From NCBI GenBank assembly GCA_022241785.1, contig JAKOMP010000002.1, positions 110,681-174,680 on the forward strand: DNA of 64,000 nucleotides, written 5' to 3'. Positions 39,595-50,925 of the stretch are shown piece after piece. Under the pieces are notes generated by a model. The model ran no database searches and was not told the origin of the DNA. It saw nothing but the letters and a program-made list of their open reading frames with translations. The stretch comes from Cyanocohniella sp. LLY (GTDB taxonomy: Bacteria; Cyanobacteriota; Cyanobacteriia; Cyanobacteriales; Nostocaceae). Within the stretch, counting starts at the first letter, position 1; every line of letters starts with the position of its first letter. A program made the translations under genes and the position numbers.

Positions 39595-40059
39595 CTACCA
39601 TTGGGAAAATGGGTGTGTTACCAAATTGCTGTTAAAATACCGATAGTCATGGGAAACTTCTTGCCCAATCCACGTAGGTATGTCAAACACTTGGTTGGCA
39701 TCACTGAGTTCGACTTCTGCTAAAATCAAACCTTTATTGATACCGTCAAACTCGTCTATTTCCCAAATCAAACCGCCCCACTCTATTTTGTATCTAATTT
39801 TTTCGATAAAAGGACGACGGCATAATGTATCAAGCATTATTTGAGCATCTACCACAGGAATTGGGTACTCAAATTCTAATCGAGTCACATTGACAACAGG
39901 CCCTTTAATTGTTAAGTAAGCTTGTTCCCCGATGATCCGTACACGTACAGTAACTTTGTCTTGAGTAGCAATGTATCCTTGACGATATATACTTCCCTTA
40001 GCTAATTCTCGCCAACCATCTCCCATAACTAAAAACTTACGTTCTATTTCTTTTGCCAT
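39595..40059 (-). CDS. CYTH domain protein
   Basis: A 154-residue soluble protein of the CYTH (triphosphate tunnel) superfamily. The signature EIERKFLV sits at residues 4-11. Alternating acidic/basic strands TVRVRIIGEQAYLTIKG, LEFEYPI, IRYKIEWGG, WEIDEFDG and LAEVEL supply the tunnel. Bacterial members with this short length are usually inorganic triphosphatases, so hydrolysis of tripolyphosphate is the best guess. It is a single gene. Confidence 0.9.
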   Translation of the reverse strand: MAKEIERKFLVMGDGWRELAKGSIYRQGYIATQDKVTVRVRIIGEQAYLTIKGPVVNVTRLEFEYPIPVVDAQIMLDTLCRRPFIEKIRYKIEWGGLIWEIDEFDGINKGLILAEVELSDANQVFDIPTWIGQEVSHDYRYFNSNLVTHPFSQW

Positions 40060-40446
40060 TTTGTTAAATTATTATTTAATAGGGTTTAGAGGTTAGGGGC
40101 TAGAGGAAATTACCTCATCTAGATAAACAATTCTGTATATTCAGGGAAATATCTTAATCTTTTTAGCAACTAAATATTGATTTTAAGATACTTTAGATAC
40201 TGTTAAAAATCTAAAATTGGTAAAATTTTATAATAAGTCTAGCTCTGCTGTCTACATAAAAATATTACCAGTTATCAACTAGCAAATAACTGGAGATAGA
40301 ATTAATTATGATTTAGTGCGATCGCTATTAATGATTCTGGCTGCTCATCAGATTGCCAGAACAGAGTATTGGCGATCGCACTGCTTAATTTCCCTCATGA
40401 ATATTGACAATGAGAGAATATTTAACTTAATCAAGTGAAAACCAAC
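40060..40446. other. Intergenic region, nothing recognised
   Basis: AT-rich, with two HIP1 GCGATCGC sites (near 40319 and 40372). No open frame with a ribosome site was found. It lies downstream of the 55-residue ORF and upstream of the CYTH gene. Confidence 0.5.
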
Positions 40447-40614
40447 TTAATAACCGCATCCAATACGTCCAGATCCACGGTCAAAGTTAAGTTCACTATC
40501 ATCCACATAGTTAGTGATAGGTAAGCGTTGAGCAGTAGCGGTTTTCTGAGCCATAGCCAGAGATGACACAGATTCCTGCCAACCTACAAACAATTCTGAG
40601 GTGAAGCGGTTCAT
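40447..40614 (-). CDS. 55-residue ORF with an RGSGR pentapeptide
   Basis: ATG at 40614 (reverse strand) to TAA at 40447. The product has a hydrophobic/aromatic N-terminus (MNRFTSELFVGWQES), a Thr/Ala/Gln middle, an acidic patch (NYVDDSELNFD) and the ending DRGSGRIGCGY; RGSGR is at residues 46-50. RGSGR is the pentapeptide of PatS and HetN, which inhibits HetR and sets heterocyst spacing, and PatX carries a similar one. Here the motif is followed by five more residues and preceded by Asp instead of Glu. The ribosome site (AAAG) is weak. The regulatory role is inference. It could instead be a small conserved protein in which RGSGR is coincidental. Confidence 0.55.
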   Translation of the reverse strand: MNRFTSELFVGWQESVSSLAMAQKTATAQRLPITNYVDDSELNFDRGSGRIGCGY

Positions 40615-40797
40615 AATCTTTAGTTTGGTAAGTTGATGGTAATTTCTACAAGCGCAGGAAGTTTACGAAGAGAAGATTCCACGAAGCTTTGAATATATTC
40701 TAGCAAAAATATTAGTTGTGAAACAGTCCACTATATATGCCATATGATAGTTACCTGACGCAGCACAATCAGAAAAAATTTTCCAGTCAATCTTAAT

Positions 40798-40825
40798 TAA
40801 AAAAGCTCCTTTTGCAGGGAGCTAT
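40798..40825 (-). terminator. Terminator of the TPR gene
   Basis: Reading the minus strand, AGCTCC and GGAGCT (plus 40818-40823 and 40804-40809) form a stem followed by T residues (plus-strand A at 40798-40803). It lies 40 bases after the TPR gene stop, so the RGSGR ORF is probably transcribed independently. Confidence 0.75.
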
Positions 40826-40866: not shown

Positions 40867-42498
40867 CTAGAGAAATAATTTACTAAGTGTCAACTGAGTA
40901 TCTGCATGTTTCCATGCTGCGGCTAATTCAGTTTGTACAAGTTTCCCAGCGTTATTTTTACCCTGTGCTTGCAAACTGGTCTGTAAACCAAACAAAGAAC
41001 GTCCGTTGTGGGGGTACTGCTTCAAATCATCTCGAAAAACTTGTTCGGCTGCGGCATAATCACCCTTAGCTAATAGCGCACCTCCTAACGCTTCCCGTGT
41101 GGGAAAGTACCAGTCTGGTGGTTCCACATAATCAAGAGCATCTTCGGCTACCACTGCTTGTTGGAGTAATTTAATTGCCGATTCATAGTCATGCTGAGAC
41201 TTGGCAATTTTAGCATCGAGTAATTTGGCAGCGATGTTGAGAATGCGACTAGCGGGAGTAAAACCAATGGTAGCCTCGGCGGGAATTTGCTGAGTAGCAG
41301 TTAGCAAAGCTTGACTTTCATTGGTGGCATCTTCTAAGTTACCCTTAGCGGCATGAGCCATACCACGAGCAAAATGCCACAGTGCATTAGTAGTAGGTAA
41401 TTTGGCATCGGGAGTTGGTGTCTGCAAAACGGCATCCCAGTCACCAAATCGCAATTGAATCAACATTTTATTGCCTAAGAAGCCCTCAAGCATGGGTAAA
41501 TATGGGTCAATGGCCGCTGCATTGGTGACTAATTTCTCCGCAGCTTGCAAAGCATCCTGATATCTTCCTGCCATACTGCTGGCTACCATGAGAAAATGCA
41601 CGTTGTGGTTGTAATACATCTGAGGATAAATACCCTCTACTAGATGATTACGCAAATAGATATCATCTTGAGCGATCGCTTGCTGATTTGAACGCATGGC
41701 TTTTTCATAATCTCCCACCCGAAAATAAATATGTGCAGGCATATGTACCAAGTGTCCAGCAGCGGGAACTAAAGTTTCTAGTCGTTTAGCACTCTGGAGT
41801 CCAAGTTCTGGGTGTAGTGATGCTTCTACTGCATGAATGTAGTAATGATTAGCTCCTGGATGCTGAGGATCACGTTGCATGACTGATTCTAAAACAGCCA
41901 CAATTTCTTCTGTATCTCCCTGGGGTTGGCCATCTTTAGACCACATTTGCCAAGGATGCAAATCCATGAGACTTTCTGCGTATAGTGTCGCCGCATCTAA
42001 ATCATCAGGATAGCATTTGACTAAGTGACCCATTGCTTGGGCATAGTCCACCGCCAATTGATACAAATCTGCATCGGGTTTATTAGAGTAACGCTTGGCT
42101 AGGGCAGCAATATAAGCTTGTTCTGGGGCTGATGCTTGGGGAGCCAGTGCCAAAGCCTTTTGTATGGCTTCATAGGCAACTTGTTCTCGTTCGGGGTCGA
42201 TATCTAAGTTAATGTTTGCACCGACACCCAAGGCCATACCCCAATATGCCATTGCCATTGTTGGATCTAGTTTGGCAGCGTGTTGAAAAGAACGCACCGC
42301 TTCGTCATGATTAAAGGCGTAAATTAAATTTAGCCCCTGGTCGAAAAACGTTTGTGCTGCTGGGCTAGTGGTAGTCACAGCATGGTGGTGTGTTCCCAGT
42401 CCAGATATCACATCATCGGGCTGTTTGGTTTGAGCCAGTGCTGTGCTGGGAATTACTAAGGATAGTATCAGTACCCAAATTATTAATAAGTACTTCAT
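40867..42498 (-). CDS. Exported TPR-repeat protein
   Basis: A 543-residue protein from ATG at 42498, which has GGAG at the correct distance. An in-frame ATG at 42594 would add 32 residues before the signal peptide and is rejected. The signal peptide is MKYLLIIWVLILSLVIPSTALA, so it is periplasmic or secreted. Helical TPR-like units cover the rest (TFFDQGLNLIYAFNHDEAVR, AMAYWGMALGVGANINLD, HYYIHAVEASLHPELGLQSA, HMPAHIYFRVGDYEKAM). Related bacterial proteins are annotated only as tetratricopeptide proteins. No enzyme motif was recognised. The terminator at 40798 ends it. Confidence 0.85.
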   Translation of the reverse strand: MKYLLIIWVLILSLVIPSTALAQTKQPDDVISGLGTHHHAVTTTSPAAQTFFDQGLNLIYAFNHDEAVRSFQHAAKLDPTMAMAYWGMALGVGANINLDIDPEREQVAYEAIQKALALAPQASAPEQAYIAALAKRYSNKPDADLYQLAVDYAQAMGHLVKCYPDDLDAATLYAESLMDLHPWQMWSKDGQPQGDTEEIVAVLESVMQRDPQHPGANHYYIHAVEASLHPELGLQSAKRLETLVPAAGHLVHMPAHIYFRVGDYEKAMRSNQQAIAQDDIYLRNHLVEGIYPQMYYNHNVHFLMVASSMAGRYQDALQAAEKLVTNAAAIDPYLPMLEGFLGNKMLIQLRFGDWDAVLQTPTPDAKLPTTNALWHFARGMAHAAKGNLEDATNESQALLTATQQIPAEATIGFTPASRILNIAAKLLDAKIAKSQHDYESAIKLLQQAVVAEDALDYVEPPDWYFPTREALGGALLAKGDYAAAEQVFRDDLKQYPHNGRSLFGLQTSLQAQGKNNAGKLVQTELAAAWKHADTQLTLSKLFL

Positions 42499-42596
42499 AC
42501 TCAATACTCCGTTTCCAACTTTTTGATCTTGTTTAAGTAAGTCGGCGAGAAAAAATCCAACTATGTTAAGCAATGTAAAATAATTAAAATTCATTT

Positions 42597-45820: not shown

Positions 45821-48800
45821 ATGAACCTCTCGTTGTCGTTCAGAGTTCAAGGAGATATGAACAAAGATATTAGTAACGAACAATCTCCTACTCGAGAAGC
45901 GGCTATTCTCAAACTTGTGCAAATAATTGCAGGAGATATAAGTCTCGCATCAGAGTTTAGCCAATATTGGGTGATGCGTGAGTTTAAACTGGGTGATGAA
46001 TTGAGTAGTGCTGCTCTCAATGAAGACAGTTTTCTACATTTTGTTTGTCAAGGTCGCGTGCGTTTGTTGAGTTTTGATGTAACTCTCAAGCGAGAAGTTT
46101 CGACACAATTAATATTAGCAGAACAAACTTTTGGGGCAGATCATTTATTTTGTCATCAACCTTTACCATACCGGGCGATCGCAGCGAGTGCGGGTTATGT
46201 AGCCAGCATAGCCATTGCTGATTTAAAACAGTGGTTAGAGCGTTTACCTAGTCTCGAAAGTTATTTACAGCATTTTACAGGTGAACAGCAAGCATTAATT
46301 TTCTTTAAAACTTATACTGAGTTGCGATCGCTTACCAGTAACACTGTGCGTGAATTGCTCCCCTACTTTGTAGCCACTAAGATAACGGCTGGCTCATCTT
46401 TAGCAGAAGTCACTGCACTAGTAAAGGGGCATTTTTGGTTAGTCAGTGGCAAAATTGCAAGTTCACAACAGATAGGAGATAGCTGGGGATATGCCGATAC
46501 CGCACCGAATGATGGTATTGCCCAAACTGATTTGTTAGTTTACCACCTATCTCCAACACACTGGGAAACAGTCAGAGCGATCGCACCGCAGTTATTGGCT
46601 GGTGGTGAACCAGTAGCAGAAGTCTTGGAAGTTGCCCAAATACCACTTCCTGCGCCATCAGAAACTAGTATCGAAACTATTTACCCTTCTCCAGAGGAAC
46701 CTCTAGCAGAGATTGCAGAAATTGATTTTCTGGAAACAGATGACCAGCTACCATCAAAAGCTAAGTCTTGGCGTGACTATCCATTTATTCAACAACAAAG
46801 TTCATCAGATTGTGGTGCGGCGTGTTTGGCAATGATTAGCCAATATTGGGGTAAGTACTTGCGCCTCTATACTCTGCGGAATTTAGCCCAAGTAGACCGC
46901 ATGGGTGCATCTCTCCAGGACTTAGCCGCAGCGGCGGAAACCTTAGGATATGATGTGCTACCAGTAAGGGCAAGTTTAGATAAGTTTGATACTTATGCCC
47001 ATCCTTGGATTGCCCACTGGCAAGGCATTCACTATATAGTTGTCTGGCAAGTTAAAAGCGATCGCTTGTTGATTTCTGACCCAGCTTTAGGTAAACAATG
47101 GATGTCACGTCCAGAATTTATCGCGAGTTGGACAGGGTATGCTTTACTATTAAATCCCACTGAGCGTTTTCACACCCTCAAAAGCGAAAAAGTTTCTTGG
47201 GGTCGTTATGGGGATACCTTGTGGAATTACCGAAAATTAATTGGGCCGATTATTCTTTCTTTAATGTTGGTGCAATTATTTGAGTTAGCAACGCCTTTAT
47301 TTACCCAAATAGTCATTGACCAAATAATTCCCCGACAAGATTTTGAAACCCTAAATATTTTTGTTCTCAGCTTTCTGGGTTTAGGTATCTGGCGCACTGT
47401 CTTAACAGCACAGCGTCAATACCTCTTGGAGTATATTGCTAACCGCATCGACTTGAATTTGATTGGTAGTTTTATTAACTATACTTTGCAGTTACCGTTG
47501 CAATTTTTTGCATCGCGTCAAGTAGAAGACATTCTCAGCCGTGTCCCAGAAAATAGCAAGATTCAGTTGTTTCTCACCCGACAAGCTGTCAGCGCAATTA
47601 TCGACGTTTTCATGGTGGTGATTTATCTGGGGTTGATCACTTATTACAACTGGCAATTAACTTGTGTGGTGCTGGGTTGGCTGTTATTAATTGTGATTTT
47701 GACTCTCGCCACAACGCCATCTCTAAAAAAAGCTGCCCAGGAAATTATCAAAGAATCAGCAGGACATAATTCTGCAATGCTGGAAATGATGACTGGTATT
47801 GTCACAGTTAAAACCACAGCAGCGGAGTACCCTGTGCAAATGCATTGGGAAGAGCGTTTTCAGAAAATGCTCAAGGTGCGGTTACGGGGGCGAAAGTTAG
47901 CTAGTAACTGGCAATTAATTAGGGGTTTGATTAATCAAATTGGCATTACCTTGGTTTTGTGGTTCGGTGTCAATATGGTGATTAATGGGCAAATGTCCCT
48001 GGGTAAGTTTATCGCTTTTAATTTACTCATTAGTAATATCACAATGGCAGTGTTGGCATTGGTGAGTTTTTGGCATGAGTTACCAGAAATTCAGATTTCT
48101 CTAGAGAAGTTGGCAGATATTTTTGCCTCCCAGCCAGAAGATAATTCCCCCACACCTTTACTAGTAATGCCCGCAATTCGCGGTGAAGTCCATTTTGAAA
48201 ATGTTTCTTTTGGATACAACCCTGGTAAATATCACAACACCTTGCACAATATTTCTTTTCAGGTGCAACCCCAGCAGACCATTGGTATTATCGGTCGCAG
48301 TGGTTCAGGTAAAAGTACATTAATGAATTTGCTGGCTGGTTTATATCGTCCCGACACAGGCCGGATATTAATTGATGGACAAGATATTGCCCTAGTTTCG
48401 CCGCAGTCGTTACGCAGTCAATTAATTTTGGTACCCCAGGAGTGTTGTTTATTTTCCGGAACCATTTTAGAAAACATTACCCTGTATAGTTCAGAGTTTA
48501 GTTTAGAACAGGCGATCGCCTCTGCCAAAGTAGCAGAAGCACACAGCTTTATTCAGTCATTGCCTTTGGGGTATAACACCCAAGTCGGAGAACGGGGGAT
48601 GATGTTATCTAGTGGACAAAAACAAAAAATTGCCATCGCCAGGGCATTAATTAGGAATCCCCGGATTTTAATTTTGGATGAAGCGACTAGCGGCCTAGAT
48701 GCAGAGTCAGAACGCTGTCTACAAAAAAACTTAACACGCTTCAGTAGCGATCGTACTACTTTTATCATTTCTCATCGTCTCTCTAGCGTCCGTCATGCAG

Positions 48801-48904
48801 ACTGTATATTCGTCCTAGACAGAGGTGTTTTAGTAGAACAAGGCACTCATCAACAATTAATGGCCACAGCTAGTCTTTATCACCACTTAGCCCAACTGCA
48901 ATGA
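45821..48904 (+). CDS. hetC: HetC-like peptidase-containing ABC exporter
   Basis: A 1027-residue membrane protein matching HetC, the heterocyst-differentiation exporter, in domain order and in lying upstream of hetP. Residues 1-270 hold two cyclic-nucleotide-binding-like beta folds. A C39 peptidase follows (about 318-440) with the triad Cys331 (SSSDCGAACLAMI), His404 (GIHYIVVW) and Asp420 (LLISDPA), all present. Six spans come next, then the ATPase with GRSGSGKST and the unusual signature LSSGQKQ, Walker B LILDEATSGLD. C39 exporters cleave double-glycine leaders while exporting peptides; a HetC cargo has not been defined. The start is uncertain: ATG at 45821 lacks a ribosome site, while ATG at 45857 follows AAGGAG too closely. 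Confidence 0.88.
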   Translation: MNLSLSFRVQGDMNKDISNEQSPTREAAILKLVQIIAGDISLASEFSQYWVMREFKLGDELSSAALNEDSFLHFVCQGRVRLLSFDVTLKREVSTQLILAEQTFGADHLFCHQPLPYRAIAASAGYVASIAIADLKQWLERLPSLESYLQHFTGEQQALIFFKTYTELRSLTSNTVRELLPYFVATKITAGSSLAEVTALVKGHFWLVSGKIASSQQIGDSWGYADTAPNDGIAQTDLLVYHLSPTHWETVRAIAPQLLAGGEPVAEVLEVAQIPLPAPSETSIETIYPSPEEPLAEIAEIDFLETDDQLPSKAKSWRDYPFIQQQSSSDCGAACLAMISQYWGKYLRLYTLRNLAQVDRMGASLQDLAAAAETLGYDVLPVRASLDKFDTYAHPWIAHWQGIHYIVVWQVKSDRLLISDPALGKQWMSRPEFIASWTGYALLLNPTERFHTLKSEKVSWGRYGDTLWNYRKLIGPIILSLMLVQLFELATPLFTQIVIDQIIPRQDFETLNIFVLSFLGLGIWRTVLTAQRQYLLEYIANRIDLNLIGSFINYTLQLPLQFFASRQVEDILSRVPENSKIQLFLTRQAVSAIIDVFMVVIYLGLITYYNWQLTCVVLGWLLLIVILTLATTPSLKKAAQEIIKESAGHNSAMLEMMTGIVTVKTTAAEYPVQMHWEERFQKMLKVRLRGRKLASNWQLIRGLINQIGITLVLWFGVNMVINGQMSLGKFIAFNLLISNITMAVLALVSFWHELPEIQISLEKLADIFASQPEDNSPTPLLVMPAIRGEVHFENVSFGYNPGKYHNTLHNISFQVQPQQTIGIIGRSGSGKSTLMNLLAGLYRPDTGRILIDGQDIALVSPQSLRSQLILVPQECCLFSGTILENITLYSSEFSLEQAIASAKVAEAHSFIQSLPLGYNTQVGERGMMLSSGQKQKIAIARALIRNPRILILDEATSGLDAESERCLQKNLTRFSSDRTTFIISHRLSSVRHADCIFVLDRGVLVEQGTHQQLMATASLYHHLAQLQ

Positions 48905-50511: not shown

Positions 50512-50925
50512 ATGAATCAAGATATTCCTGGAATTAGTAGCAACTTCAATAAAGCCATGAATCCTCAACAATTTGACCAAATAGTGGAAGCAATTCTTGC
50601 TGGAAAGTATTCCTGGGCATGTGTTTTAATGCTACGCATAGTTGGTTACAACCCTTTGCATTACATTCCCTACCGCACTTATAACCGACTACTGAAAGAA
50701 AATACCCAAAACAGAACACATCAACAGCATCACGAAAATAAGAATGCTGCTAAACCATCAATTAACCAAAAATCTCATTCTCAGGCTTCTACCAGTTGTT
50801 TAAGTAAAATCAAAGACCTGGCGTATCTAGAAGTGGTAGGAAAACAAAAAGCAGAAATTCGTGGTGCTGGTATGGATAATTACTCAGCGCAGTCAAACCA
50901 AGACTCTCAAACCTTAGCATCTTAA
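50512..50925 (+). CDS. hetP: Heterocyst differentiation protein HetP
   Basis: A 137-residue regulator of commitment to heterocyst development. Residues about 14-62 ([51 protein letters not shown]) are the conserved HetP domain. The remainder is polar and disordered, rich in His, Asn, Gln and Ser. HetP acts downstream of HetR and interacts with its paralogues and HetR in Anabaena. It sits about 1.6 kb after hetC, as in other heterocyst formers. The start has no ribosome site; an AC-rich unstructured leader (ACAACAACAACACC) precedes the ATG. It is shorter than the Anabaena protein, mainly in the tail. Confidence 0.92.

Follow-up and report, generated by a model that had tools for sequence, protein, structure and literature searches.

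The minus strand of the window, the term used here for the whole 64,000-nt stretch of Cyanocohniella sp. LLY DNA that was analysed, carries a 55-codon open reading frame (ORF), window:40447-40614:-, that reads MNRFTSELFVGWQESVSSLAMAQKTATAQRLPITNYVDDSELNFDRGSGRIGCGY* in translation, as an earlier note on this DNA had it. The C-terminus is ..DRGSGRIGCGY: the motif is internal and is followed by a 5-residue tail and, because it is not C-terminal, would have to be trimmed free. Over all six reading frames (127,996 codons in the window) RG[ST]GR occurs a single time, in this ORF. Such an occurrence is weak evidence by itself and unremarkable at genome scale, RGSGR being present in 12 of 200 first-order-Markov random windows of the same composition (mean 0.06); the ORF is regarded as a real gene because its homologues conserve DRGSGR, not because of the presence of the motif alone, and it is very likely to be one. 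The 55-residue peptide has no match in Pfam or NCBIfam up to E 10, and AlphaFold2 predicts no fold for it (mean pLDDT 54, no usable model), with a helix placed at residues 4-22 of the low-confidence model. The features of the locus are collected in Table 1.

Table 1. Features in and around the 55-codon ORF (positions within the window)
Feature	Position	Strand	Basis
CYTH-domain gene, constant downstream neighbour	39595..40059	-	Pfam PF01928
Terminator-like hairpin after the ORF, ahead of CYTH	40268..40293	-	hairpin scan
3' hairpin TTCTCTCAT...ATGAGGGAA after the ORF	40390..40418	-	arm patterns in members
55-codon ORF, ATG to TAA, candidate precursor of a DRGSGR peptide	40447..40614	-	homologues, open frame, neutral simulation
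DRGSGR motif, residues 45-50, candidate HetR-binding hexapeptide	40465..40482	-	codon counts, permutation, simulation
Weakened Sec-signal-like N-terminus (residues 1-22), similar to the signal peptides of proteins exported in Nostocaceae, MNRFTSILLAGLIASASALAIS..	40549..40614	-	sequence matches, hydropathy
5' leader/promoter region, conserved above the level of the ORF	40615..40714	-	alignment; pairwise difference
Terminator-like hairpin separating the TPR gene upstream from the ORF	40804..40823	-	hairpin scan
TPR protein gene upstream, context only	40867..42594	-	domain match
hetC: C39 peptidase, ABC membrane and ATPase domains	45821..48904	+	domain match

The neighbour that stays with the ORF is CYTH, which adjoins it on the same strand in the window and at the 10 other member loci examined, at a gap of 275-387 nt in six loci and of about 780 nt in G079. 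The earlier note had drawn attention to hetC and hetP instead. Both are close by, hetC at a distance of 5.2 kb and, beyond it, an ORF at 50512-50925 that we take by eye to be HetP-like. Nonetheless, hetC is found at none of the 10 other member loci in 3.5-9.9 kb of upstream sequence (the 5.2-kb distance being covered in the nine with at least 6 kb); its proximity to the ORF is incidental, and the weight put on it is not supported. C39 peptidase domains cut after a double glycine elsewhere. Such a pair (YDGG-LNFDRGSGR) precedes the motif in four of 10 distinct members (G193, G079, G194 and G192; loci L062, L063, L064 and L012) and is absent from the window copy. With this count, and with a linkage that is not conserved, the ORF as a substrate of the C39 exporter HetC was dropped and is a weak lead; the substrate of HetC is left open in the excerpted text of PMC4133259.

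A -10-like TAGAAT at 40697-40702 on the minus strand, picked out by eye in the alignment, would place the transcription start near 40690 and make the leader ~75 nt long. The box was not picked up in a scan for consensus promoters, which gave a single site, at another place in the region, where 3.5 were expected; and by eye the alignment offers no clear Shine-Dalgarno sequence ahead of the ORF. Two terminator-like hairpins were found in the region, against 0.3 expected in shuffles; since they flank the ORF on the minus strand, the gene looks monocistronic. Divergence among five genomes is lowest in the leader and next lowest in the ORF and early 3' region, and rises outside the transcript region. 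Exact DIF1 (TCCGGA) is absent from the 330 nt upstream of the ORF in 10 members, the single site at one mismatch being that of G016 at -238. In the same 10 sequences GTAN8TAC is present in G010 only, at -323, the looser TGTN9-10ACA is present in four, always beyond -220, and no NtcA-like site lies within 220 nt upstream of the ORF.

Homologues that conserve the frame and keep RGSGR, on which the earlier note had staked its case, do exist. Searched with the single sequence, 149 genomes (that of the window counted in) yield seven others at E 0.007 or better, two weaker matches being taken as chance. With a profile built on alignment A1 (eight rows, one partial), 125 of the 217 family genomes give a match at E up to 1, and 11 stand apart at 2.8e-18 or better, the next match coming only at 3e-4. 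The 11 strong homologues are spread over five of 56 genera, and every one of these genomes has DRGSGR. Many of the weaker profile matches cover the N-terminus alone, within signal peptides of longer exported proteins; the remainder look like chance. One short pattern, run over 84,980 species, matched 13 stretches, six of which were confirmed as relatives: Nodularia sp. LCM1.Bin15 (whose coding sequence, identical to that of G192, is counted once), an uncultured Nodularia, Nostocales LEGE 11386, 'Nostoc sp. RI_552', Chrysosporum bergii and Anabaenopsis elenkinii. The frame is open in 10 of 11 distinct sequences. The exception is the Anabaenopsis copy of G080 (L065, G080:C1:3869053-3869221; omitted from the codon counts), in which a 1-nt insertion, conceivably an assembly error, splits the ORF ahead of the motif; downstream of the insertion the motif is intact, its changes synonymous. 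A tree of CYTH proteins from 30 genomes places the six members that it contains together (support value not taken into account), in line with a single origin. The gene was not found in the titles and abstract openings listed for RGSGR, PatX, HetR, heterocysts and Nodularia; Elhai and Khudyakov 2018 may list the ORF.

Conservation of the motif also emerges from searches that start elsewhere. With the leader DNA and first codons as the query and the motif unused, the six best matches in 120 genomes, counting the window's own, all belong to the ORF family and all have DRGSGR. A second route, through CYTH, matched 51 of 110 genomes; the sequence upstream was scanned in 30, and the ORF was found in six, all with DRGSGR, on a scan that recognised ORFs by the motif, DRG or the N-terminus, so that a member with none of the three could be missed in the other 24. 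The earlier note had suggested a dN/dS analysis, and this separates the motif from the rest of the ORF. Over 10 distinct intact sequences, the whole ORF has a dN/dS of 0.755; dN is 0 and dS 0.46 in the motif's six codons, and the non-motif codons have dN 0.222 and dS 0.233, a ratio of 0.95 that, being near 1, may overstate neutrality. The caveat comes from CYTH: in 10 genomes, synonymous change in the ORF runs at half the CYTH rate (pS 0.219 vs 0.432; pN 0.172 vs 0.092), and some of the constraint therefore lies on the nucleic acid, conservation being in part at the RNA level. In the motif codons variation is synonymous only (pS 0.346, pN 0), and DRGSGR is the longest invariant residue run in the family (permutation p 0.007); as a control, six of 148 six-codon windows in CYTH are likewise without amino-acid change. 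A neutral simulation with a tree and rates taken from the ORF's own non-motif codons keeps DRGSGR in 0 of 5000 runs and leaves all 10 tips stop-free in 49. A tightly constrained peptide in an otherwise drifting protein is what the codons suggest, and this would be the pattern of a precursor.

The N-terminus and leader point to relatives of another kind. Judged by hydropathy, the signal-like segment is weak: its best 12-residue value is 0.67-2.02 in the family vs 2.1-2.4 for a set of four paralogues plus the PatX of the host (2.15). The window copy stands at the bottom of this range (0.67), with E and Q inside the hydrophobic stretch, and its export is therefore doubtful. The leader has a mean pairwise difference of 0.05-0.16 per 15-nt bin (five genomes), and its sequence, GTGGAATCTTCTCTTCGTAAACTTCCTGCGCTTGTAGAAATTA, is common to Nostocaceae genes for small exported proteins and is conserved above the level of those proteins. 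A search that reported one match per genome and scored at most seven candidates finds, in seven other genomes (L168-L174), a similar leader ahead of genes whose exported products are Arg/Tyr-rich or have YDRDNN repeats, and RGSGR is absent from these loci. Such proteins share the 5' leader and the signal-peptide sequence with the ORF; unlike it, they have a more hydrophobic signal peptide, a long basic mature part and no RGSGR, and no CYTH was found adjoining the four of their loci that were examined with wide flanks. YDRDNNRR-type repeat proteins with a signal peptide occur in many genomes of genus g7 and in G037 (L020-L022, L026-L028, L030-L032, L034-L038), their length following the repeat number. 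The leader and signal segment of the ORF may thus derive from a gene of the exported Arg/Tyr-rich type. The shared leader is possibly a regulatory RNA or a short upstream ORF; a specific upstream ORF (G/TTG..ESSLRKLP(A/V)LVEITINLPN, its stop right ahead of the ATG) was not established, G010 being without the stop among the eight of 10 members examined.

Separateness from PatS and PatX is plain from the genomes themselves. PatX was located with a degenerate HRG(S/T)GR pattern, a composite PatX peptide query having given no convincing match, and is a separate gene in every one of the 11 member genomes, truncated by a contig end in one. It has a signal peptide and HRGSGR, or, in G079, DRGSGR (L116), so that a D ahead of the motif occurs in a clear PatX. 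Elhai and Khudyakov (2018) are said to have defined PatX by a DIF1 motif no more than about 69 nt upstream. Nine of the 11 PatX genes have TCCGGA at -62/-63; the exceptions are the one truncated by the contig end and that of G080, which has none within 200 nt. In the window's genome hetR, patX (~11 kb from hetR) and patS are together on contig C147, and the ORF is on C149. A gene ending ..ERGSGR*, presumably patS-like from its likeness to PatS, is present in all 10 member genomes searched; one example reads MKTTMLVNFLDERGSGR*, ending at the motif. PatS is thought to stay inside the cell. The ORF is accordingly neither PatX, which is elsewhere in the same genomes and mostly has the DIF1 that the ORF lacks, nor PatS, for which a gene likewise exists elsewhere and which ends at the motif; here the earlier note was right to set the ORF apart from PatS by the IGCGY that follows its motif. 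Nor is it HetN, which also has RGSGR internally and is a ketoacyl-reductase-type enzyme (PMC4649674), the ORF having 55 residues and no Pfam or NCBIfam match. Among the close parallels is PatX of the asl2332 type: as the product of the ORF would be, it is a small precursor with a linker, XRG(S/T)GR and a tail to be trimmed, perhaps with a hydrophobic N-terminus in common, and it is co-resident with hetR; the ORF differs in a weaker signal-like segment, a different leader, the lack of DIF1, and (F/Y)DRGSGR with a 5-residue tail. PatS of the asl2301 type shares with the ORF a small gene and the RGSGR pentapeptide, but is very short and ends in ERGSGR. PMC5812504, whose table includes Nodularia spumigena, also describes an 'alternative' PatS, the second of its kind, with Y/HRGSGR as its motif; this is probably PatX, and the excerpted text of that paper has nothing on the gene described here.

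What remains is the relation to HetR. A hetR query finds the gene in 11 of 11 host genomes at 89-91% identity, one partial at a contig end, a result that, with members alone scored, discriminates little. RGSGR is under selection here in hosts with hetR, which makes the ORF a candidate for the functional class of RGSGR inhibitors of HetR. XRGSGR binds the HetR hood, any residue X serving through its free amino group, and longer N-terminal extensions hinder binding; R223 of HetR is close to the C-terminal carboxylate of the peptide (PMC4649674). The peptide-contact residues named in the same paper (R223, E253, E254, D256, D270 and D278) are intact in eight of eight parsed sequences from the 11 hosts. 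For PatX, which is exported and processed by PatP, the hexapeptide HRGTGR binds HetR with a KD of 88 nM (PMC12756182). Since DRGSGR fits the XRGSGR rule and the contact residues are intact, trimmed DRGSGR should bind HetR.

These facts suffice for a proposal, which we hold to be rather probable: the ORF is a small gene for a further, independently evolved XRGSGR precursor that inhibits HetR. The gene, probably monocistronic, would be translated into a precursor of DRGSGR, and proteolytic trimming on both sides would free the hexapeptide, which would bind the HetR hood domain and release HetR from DNA; that release would restrain heterocyst differentiation and add an inhibitor source to PatS and PatX. 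The ORF lacks DIF1 and nearby NtcA-like sites and would therefore probably set a baseline of inhibitor rather than deliver a step-down pulse. The gene may have originated in one Nostocaceae group, when a module of leader and signal peptide, such as the exported Arg/Tyr-rich protein has, was placed ahead of a short segment ending in DRGSGR. The earlier note's suggestion of a further HetR-targeting peptide thus stands as to the separate gene and to RGSGR as its sole strictly conserved long segment, and falls as to hetC linkage as support.

Three other accounts have to be set against this one. The product may be a small protein that is exported or sits in the membrane and serves some other task, its DRGSGR being kept for a reason unrelated to HetR, such as binding of a wall component or of another protein. 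The leader and N-terminus, so like those of exported proteins without RGSGR, would fit, as would the lack of DIF1 and nearby NtcA-like sites and a constant neighbour, CYTH, that is not a heterocyst gene; we nevertheless think it unlikely, because the one long segment under strict conservation is the exact known HetR ligand, in hosts that keep the HetR peptide site, while the remaining residues vary freely.

That the locus acts mainly as RNA, as a regulatory transcript in which the ORF has a secondary place or a dual function, strikes us as quite improbable. The leader is conserved beyond the ORF, the ORF has half the pS of CYTH, and both arm patterns of the 3' hairpin are matched in eight of 10 members (the second arm is imperfect in G016). 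Against these stand the motif codons, which do vary, and only synonymously; a leader whose folding does not surpass that of shuffled sequences (z 0.65; 144 of 200 equally or more stable), on which ground a structured leader RNA was rejected; the presence of the same leader ahead of genes with good signal peptides; and an Rfam scan whose one match in the region, PYLIS_3, lies inside the TPR gene below the gathering score and was taken as chance. Decay of a paralogue of the exported Arg/Tyr-rich protein, with RGSGR a chance leftover, is already disfavoured and hardly credible: the near-neutral non-motif part, the weakened hydrophobic stretch and the frameshift in G080 would suit it, but neutral runs never keep DRGSGR and seldom stay stop-free, the leader is strongly conserved and all but one of the distinct sequences are open.

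Pattern searches in 10-11 member genomes (D, E or H, then RG(S/T)GR) brought up further small ORFs, which, having been found through the motif itself, offer no independent evidence of its conservation. A short hydrophobic group with QFL(D/E)RGSGR or the like is found in G000, G010, G039, G041, G063, G079, G080, G192, G194 and the non-member G015 (L104, at G000:C15:29348, L124, L126, L128, L092, L078, L200, L213, L219 and L223); a G006 match, QFLDRGTGR without the hydrophobic start, was left out of it. An upstream block is partly common among the eight that were aligned, and the frame extends in G000, G079, G192 and G015, with a Pfam assignment to DUF4174 in G000 only. A PatS-like group, MNN.FF...FSNY.NC.K.H...LDRGSGR*, is present in G039, G079 and G193, with a diverged relative in G010 whose motif is internal (L106, L127, L212, L101). 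L095 (G010:C52:11692), in one genome, is a frame of 75 residues whose N-terminal part is long and hydrophobic and which ends ..EVNERGSGR*. Shared flanks suggest common descent for most ORFs of the two groups, with less assurance for the diverged G063, G080 and G194.

A multi-gene RGSGR repertoire in the member genomes is plausible. More tentatively, there may be several non-homologous RGSGR precursors (PatS, PatX, the FDRGSGR gene, the QFL-DRGSGR group and the LDRGSGR* group), some of them a HetR ligand attached to existing leader and signal modules; if so, inhibition of HetR would be shared among genes that differ in promoter and export route, and a ligand of six residues would be the core around which morphogen genes emerge de novo. 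The patterning of heterocysts is a textbook example of a Turing-type system, with PatS, HetN and PatX as its known inhibitors. One more precursor, lacking a heterocyst-type promoter, would help to explain redundant inhibition, would add a possible nitrogen-independent baseline, and would show that repeated invention of morphogen genes around one six-residue ligand can happen.
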